From the IMG/VR virus record IMGVR_UViG_3300043436_000788, positions 1 through 38,198 of that record: a stretch of 38,198 bases of DNA; one strand, written 5' to 3'. Source of the DNA: a virus. This document shows positions 20,527 through 21,386 of this stretch, piece by piece (position 1 is the first letter of the stretch; every line of letters begins with the position of its first letter). Below the pieces are notes generated by a model that was not told where the DNA came from, did not search any database, and worked only from the letters and a program-made list of their open reading frames with translations. The translations under genes were made by a program, and so were the position numbers.

Positions 20527-20730
20527 ATGATTAAGGTCAATGGGTATGAGTTACCCATACACGTTAGCCATAGCCAGATAGGAACTTACAATTCCTGTGG
20601 CTACAAGTACTGGCTACAAAAAGCATTGAACGTATCCGAAGGTCAGACATGGTGGTTGGCTGGTGGTGTTGCTGTTCACGAAGCAACCGAAGCCTATGAC
20701 CGTCAACTATGGGAACTGCAGGGACGATAA
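20527..20730 (+). CDS. Cas4/RecB-type nuclease, N-terminal part
   Basis: This 67-aa protein carries the N-terminal elements of the PD-(D/E)XK Cas4/AddB-like family: S-x-S/T pattern with the first cluster cysteine (TYNSCGYKYWL, C24) and the motif-I histidine (AGGVAVHEATE, H51). It then stops, while the rest of the domain is in the next ORF. Relatives are normally one protein of about 270-290 aa, so this is a split gene. GAGGACAAATG supplies the ribosome site. The two chains may assemble into one enzyme. Confidence 0.7.
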   Translation: MIKVNGYELPIHVSHSQIGTYNSCGYKYWLQKALNVSEGQTWWLAGGVAVHEATEAYDRQLWELQGR

Positions 20731-21386
20731 TGGAACAACAAGAACTTATTCCCGTAGCCCAAACACCTGAAGAGTTGTGGTCTACCTACTGGGAAGCCAA
20801 TGTAACCCGTCAGCGTGCCGTACAGGGGCAGGAAGACACATCACAGTGGCGTGCTGGTGGTCGTGCAACCATAGCCAATCCGAACAAGGAAGACGGCACA
20901 TGGTGGCAAGCAAACGGTTTAAACATGCTCAACAACTGGATTCAATTCCGTGAGTCAGAGCATCTCAAACTATGGGTCACACCTCAGGGTGTACCTGCCA
21001 TTGAACTTGTGTTCAACATAAACTTAGATGGAGTCATGGTCAAGGGAGCACTTGACCGCATGATGGAACTACCAACTGGTGAGTTGGTGGTACTAGACAT
21101 CAAGTCTGGTGCACGTATGCCGTCATCTGACTTCCAGTTAGGCATCTATGCTGTAGCAATGGAGGAAACATTCGGCATTCGTCCGAAGTTTGGTATCTAT
21201 TGGGACGCACGCAAGGGTGCAACCTCAGAGTTAATCAACCTAGACAAGTGGACACGTAAGCGTGTCTCCGAGATTGTAGGAATGTTTGACAAGGCTCGGA
21301 GAGATGGTATCTTTATACCAAACTTTGACCACTGTAAGATGTGTAACTTTACAAACGATTGTAAATACCAGAATGGAGACAAGTAA
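20730..21386 (+). CDS. Cas4/RecB-type nuclease, catalytic part
   Basis: This 218-aa protein has the catalytic core D109 (KGALDRMM), D123-x-K125 (VVLDIKSG), Q136 and Y140 (FQLGIYA), and three of the four Fe-S cysteines at the end (C202, C205, C211; CKMC-x5-C). The fourth cysteine and the motif-I His are in the previous ORF. The ATG lies in the TAATG overlap with AGGGA 6 nt upstream; an earlier ATG at 20709 is possible. The product is expected to be a 5'-3' exonuclease or recombination nuclease acting with the ATPase downstream. Confidence 0.82.
   Translation: MEQQELIPVAQTPEELWSTYWEANVTRQRAVQGQEDTSQWRAGGRATIANPNKEDGTWWQANGLNMLNNWIQFRESEHLKLWVTPQGVPAIELVFNINLDGVMVKGALDRMMELPTGELVVLDIKSGARMPSSDFQLGIYAVAMEETFGIRPKFGIYWDARKGATSELINLDKWTRKRVSEIVGMFDKARRDGIFIPNFDHCKMCNFTNDCKYQNGDK

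Follow-up and report, generated by a model that had tools for sequence, protein, structure and literature searches.

How can a nuclease work when its active site is divided between two adjoining open reading frames (ORFs), and does such a pair represent two genes, a frameshifted gene or a broken one? The question is raised by a locus in IMG/VR virus record IMGVR_UViG_3300043436_000788, of which positions 1 to 38,198 (GC 45%) were analysed; this whole stretch is called the window below. The features of the locus are listed in Table 1.

Table 1. Features of the split nuclease locus, in window coordinates.
Feature	Position	Strand	Basis
Small chain (N-chain, ORF1), 67 aa: Cys helix and motif-I His helix	20527..20730	+	phrog_69, phrog_1870, PDDEXK_1 matches
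Large chain (C-chain, ORF2), 218 aa from ATG 20730	20730..21386	+	phrog_1870, PDDEXK_1, AF2 model
TAATG stop/start overlap between the two chains	20728..20732	+	sequence; same junction type in 45/147 pairs
AGGGA, Shine-Dalgarno-like site of the large chain, within the small-chain ORF	20720..20724	+	sequence
AGAGGA, Shine-Dalgarno-like site of the small chain	20518..20523	+	sequence
Cys24 codon, small chain, fourth predicted Fe-S cysteine	20596..20598	+	invariant
His51 codon, small chain, motif I	20677..20679	+	invariant
Motif II D109 to motif III D123-x-K125, large chain	21054..21104	+	invariant
C202, C205, C211: three predicted Fe-S cysteines, large chain	21333..21362	+	145/147, two others truncated
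DnaB-like helicase, downstream neighbour kept in split and fused phages	21978..22760	+	phrog_243 4e-77

Two ORFs encode the parts of one nuclease

Together, ORF1 and ORF2 are one RecB/AddB/Cas4-type (pfam12705) nuclease that is cut between the motif-I helix and the remainder. The initial annotation had recognised a Cas4/RecB-like nuclease in the two ORFs, and profile searches bear this out: both match the same families, ORF1 in the N-terminal part and ORF2 in what remains. The small chain covers positions 11-66 of phrog_1870 (3.6e-6) and 1-50 of PDDEXK_1, while the large chain covers positions 75-291 (1.1e-42) and 82-246 (5.7e-9), respectively; the two parts score 22.2 and 36.7 bits against PDDEXK_1 (cut-off 22). 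The small chain also matches phrog_69 (1.5e-7) and, weakly, the AddB profile TIGR02773 at profile positions 778-816. The large-chain ORF is open from 20709, where an alternative in-frame ATG is found, but its start is most likely the ATG at 20730, which gives the TAATG overlap. The spacing between AGGGA and this ATG is 5 nt, and in most near relatives the site is GAGGGACGATAATG-like.

The motifs of the large chain are D109, D123-x-K125, Q136-x3-Y140 and C202-x2-C205-x5-C211. The 1+3 arrangement of four cysteines is present in divided form, with C24 on the small chain and the other three on the large one, so that the divided active site and cysteine set noted in the initial annotation are found in the window as described. 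Membership in the RecB/AddB/Cas4 type is seen in the sequence, the motifs and the large-chain fold, with the motifs unusually placed on two polypeptides. The carriage of all motifs on one polypeptide, a usual though not strictly defining trait of pfam12705, is replaced by two ORFs in 147 sequences. Assignment of the large chain to CRISPR Cas4 (TIGR00372) was rejected, with 31.6 bits against a curated cut-off of 65, and no cas genes were found among the window ORFs scanned.

The AF2 model of the large chain (pLDDT 89.6) aligns to residues 839-1158 of AddB (3u4q_B) with a Z of 8.2 and an rmsd of 4.3 over 188 residues. It aligns to AdnA with a Z of 10.2, and also to MGME1, ACE1 and Cas4-family chains. 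Since the large chain corresponds to AddB 839-1158 and the small chain to AddB profile positions 778-816, the gene is cut after the helices that bear the cysteine and the histidine. A tethered model of both chains was made from a read-through of locus L094 with TAG read as Q. Its core was good, but its N-terminal part had low pLDDT and is unreliable because MAFFT had placed large-chain N-termini over the small chain; the model was therefore excluded as evidence on the interface.

The split is conserved among phages of actinobacteria

Relatives were gathered by scans of viral contigs, a genome collection and phage records. Both halves were present in 160 distinct sequences, 147 of them split and 13 fused. 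The fused sequences belong to other lineages, including phages of Rhodococcus, Mycobacterium, Gordonia, Propionibacterium, Thermobifida and Streptomyces. The small half was absent only from contigs cut at that end and from four remote genome hits (L222-L225). At this locus, ahead of the DnaB-like helicase gene, a single gene is found in Rhodococcus RER2, Mycobacterium Backyardigan and Heffalump, prophiT46-3, Gordonia Rosalind, Thermobifida P318, Streptomyces RosePharie and Propionibacterium PHL112N00.

One-frame versions were not seen among the close relatives: all of those with both halves are split, down to about 37% large-chain identity, which excludes an indel in the window as the cause. 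The split is found across a large phage group whose hosts are actinobacteria, mostly of freshwater, and its recurrence in 147 distinct sequences is far beyond chance. Between split pairs the large chain diverges at up to 76% of positions. Of the 56 representatives placed in a tree, 44 split ones group in a single clade (support 98/95), and two more split lineages (L051/L240 and L221, a Phytoactinopolyspora genome) lie near the base on long branches. A single origin of the split was not rejected (AU p = 0.29); one origin, or up to three, are possible. In L221 (240-3052; Phytoactinopolyspora halophila NZ_QMIG01000022.1, also IMG/VR 2831851512_000001), likely a prophage, about 2 kb of small ORFs separate the halves, possibly an independent split outside the main clade.

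Both chains are under purifying selection, with a median dN/dS of 0.09 for the small chain and 0.13 for the large one, and distances in the one chain track those in the other (r = 0.80; the highest value among permutations was 0.20). Such selection speaks against a decaying pseudogene, and the recurrence of the split in more than 100 independent metagenome contigs and two isolate genomes speaks against a sequencing error or assembly indel; the probability left for explanations of this kind is negligible. H51 and C24 are found on the small chain in 147/147 split pairs, as are E92, D109, D123, K125, Q136 and Y140 on the large chain. C202, C205 and C211 are present in 145/147, the other two sequences being truncated.

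The large chain could instead be an active nuclease by itself, with the small chain in a separate or purely regulatory role, such as that of an activator or safety catch. The confident fold of the large chain alone would suit this, as would the tolerance of other genes between the halves (see below). However, His51 and Cys24 are exactly what the large chain lacks for a canonical site, and they are invariant; moreover, selection on the small chain is at least as strong as on the large one. An enzyme of the large chain alone is therefore improbable.

The junction varies and in part of the pairs contains other genes

Stop and start codons overlap or abut in 102/147 pairs, and other DNA lies between the halves in the remaining 45/147. 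The former comprise 45 junctions of the TAATG type, 42 of ATGA, 11 with an overlap of 8 or 11 nt, and 4 in which a TTG comes directly after the stop. Translational coupling, which had been proposed from the TAATG and the ribosome site of the window, is supported by these overlapping and abutting codons.

Joining of the ORFs into a fused protein by programmed frameshifting or stop read-through was considered too. The second half is in the +2 frame relative to the first in 83 of the 113 pairs checked, and in L094, L140, L176 and L180 the halves share one frame with a single TAG between them, the large chain starting from a TTG directly after; both observations would fit such a fusion. Yet the relatives show every one of the three possible frames (0 in 15 pairs and +1 in 15), and the prevalence of one frame is explained by stop/start overlaps with Shine-Dalgarno-like sites. 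In agreement with the initial annotation, which had reported no classic -1 slippery site, no X XXY YYZ heptamer was found ahead of the stop codon of ORF1; CCCAAAC at 20758, the sole heptamer of this form in the vicinity, lies past that stop. With extra DNA, often whole genes, between the halves in almost a third of the pairs, fusion by frameshifting or read-through is very unlikely.

The DNA between the halves measures about 70-1950 nt in the 45 sequences, which could suggest splicing, by a group I or II intron or another removed element, to give a fused protein. However, no Rfam match to an intron was found in 13 insert-bearing loci or in the window, and most inspected inserts are ordinary small ORFs (26-218 aa) that often overlap the flanking stop or start codons. 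The small chain has its own stop codon ahead of the insert, and the window has no insert at all, so that splicing has next to no probability. The junction types, the mixed frames, the variable inserts and the missing intron match together indicate that the halves are independent genes, usually translationally coupled.

Inserts vary even among near relatives: L005 carries an ORF of 48 aa at a junction that is empty in the window, and the inserts of L219, L319 and L326 differ from one another. The nuclease junction seems to be a repeated target of insertion, receiving different small genes in different lineages. Small genes between the halves are found in L039 (1985-2957), L038 (2613-2957), L034 (2751-2972), L092 (793-987), L125 (2295-2471), L101 (2391-2498), L005 (2853-2999) and L211 (2697-3089). 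The insert of L219 (about 2697-3210) gave a first impression of non-coding DNA, which was rejected as it holds an ORF of ~171 aa, without a Pfam or PHROG match. The same ORF is present in L318, L320-L324, L327 and L328, and is replaced or absent in L319 and L326.

Relation to known nucleases

Among the closest counterparts are the Cas4-like pfam12705 exonucleases of actinobacteriophages (annotated 'Cas4 exonuclease' or 'RecB-like') in phages of Mycobacterium, Propionibacterium, Rhodococcus and Gordonia. They are homologous over both chains and share the catalytic residues, the 1+3 cysteines and a neighbourhood of replication genes, but are one polypeptide where two genes are found here. Hudaiberdiev et al. 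describe this phage clade and the four conserved cysteines of Cas4 family members, and removed short fragments and disrupted sequences from their analysis; the word 'split' is absent from their main text (PMC5704561). A literature search of incomplete coverage found nothing on a split phage exonuclease of the Cas4/RecB type.

The nuclease domain of AddB in Bacillus AddAB, which has a four-cysteine iron staple, shares the fold and the order of elements. AddB is, however, a helicase-nuclease subunit in one chain, whereas the phage pair has no helicase part and its staple would link separate chains. CRISPR Cas4 and solo-Cas4 proteins (Sso0001 and relatives) are likewise RecB-type nucleases with an N-terminal cysteine and three C-terminal ones (PMC3466216), but the phage enzyme is in two chains, and its large chain falls below the curated Cas4 cut-off. 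The best structural matches of the models are the Argonaute-associated Cas4 family ACE1 (9iab, 9iac), the AdnA nuclease domain and MGME1, all of them single chains from other biological contexts.

A probable two-chain enzyme

The best explanation of the locus, given a probability of about 0.83, is a nuclease that requires both chains, with an active site and an Fe-S cluster that would be shared between them, and with the chains made by coupled translation. An ancestral single-gene phage exonuclease of the RecB/AddB/Cas4-like (pfam12705) kind would have been divided in the loop that follows the motif-I helix. The products would be a chain of 61-67 aa with the Cys helix and the catalytic-His helix, and one of ~200-220 aa comprising the three cysteines and a beta-sheet core that bears D, D-x-K and Q-x3-Y. 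A single message would serve both genes, with translation usually terminating and reinitiating at the overlapping stop and start, yielding the chains at about 1:1.

The two chains would then assemble into one nuclease, in which His51 would complete the metal-ion active site and Cys24 the four-cysteine cluster. In Cas4 and AddB one N-terminal and three C-terminal cysteines form an iron 'staple' (PMC3466216), from which we infer that the predicted cluster would join, and hold together, the two chains. The exonuclease would presumably serve as the single-chain versions do, degrading or trimming DNA ends in phage replication or recombination; split and single-chain versions share a neighbourhood of exonuclease, DnaB-like helicase, RusA resolvase and primase.

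A further reading can be offered tentatively and with somewhat less than even odds: that this phage lineage has an obligate trans-assembled nuclease in which the four-cysteine metal cluster is an inter-chain staple and the 61-67 aa chain a separable activation subunit. As the small chain would give both the catalytic histidine and a cluster ligand, activity would hinge on assembly and perhaps also on the redox state.

The split nuclease is apparently a widespread, naturally occurring division of a well-studied fold, placed exactly between the halves of the active site and of the predicted Fe-S cluster. It permits direct tests of two ideas: that chains made separately can be held together by an iron-sulfur staple, and that a motif-I segment can serve as an activating subunit. 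The small half may be missed or misnamed in gene calls of freshwater actinophages, and pipelines that drop fragments would lose it.

Isolated Planktophila phages

A culture system is available in phages E7 and F5 (LanE43-AprE7 and AprF5; OX376640 and OX376641), isolated on 'Ca. Planktophila' LanE-43 (PMC10202952). Both have the same split gene pair as the window, with chains of 61 aa and 202 aa; their large chain is about 39% identical to that of the window, and the genes overlap by 17 nt instead of in TAATG. In the main text of the paper on these phages there is no mention of an exonuclease or a split gene (PMC10202952). The genomes are broadly homologous to the window (F5 was compared gene by gene), and the host of the window phage is therefore probably a related actinobacterium.

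A profile scan of the window ORFs also found a replication module and genes for a WhiB-like factor (19392-19715), a sigma factor (26216-26914) and a glycosyltransferase (35100-36161), a set reported for E7 and F5. DNA primase in the window likewise lies in two overlapping ORFs on the + strand in different frames (23845-24216 and 23873-24676), which hold the CHC2 zinc-ribbon part (phrog_360) and the catalytic part (phrog_849). An overlapping primase pair is present in F5 as well, and in Propionibacterium phage PHL112N00 two primase genes lie side by side.
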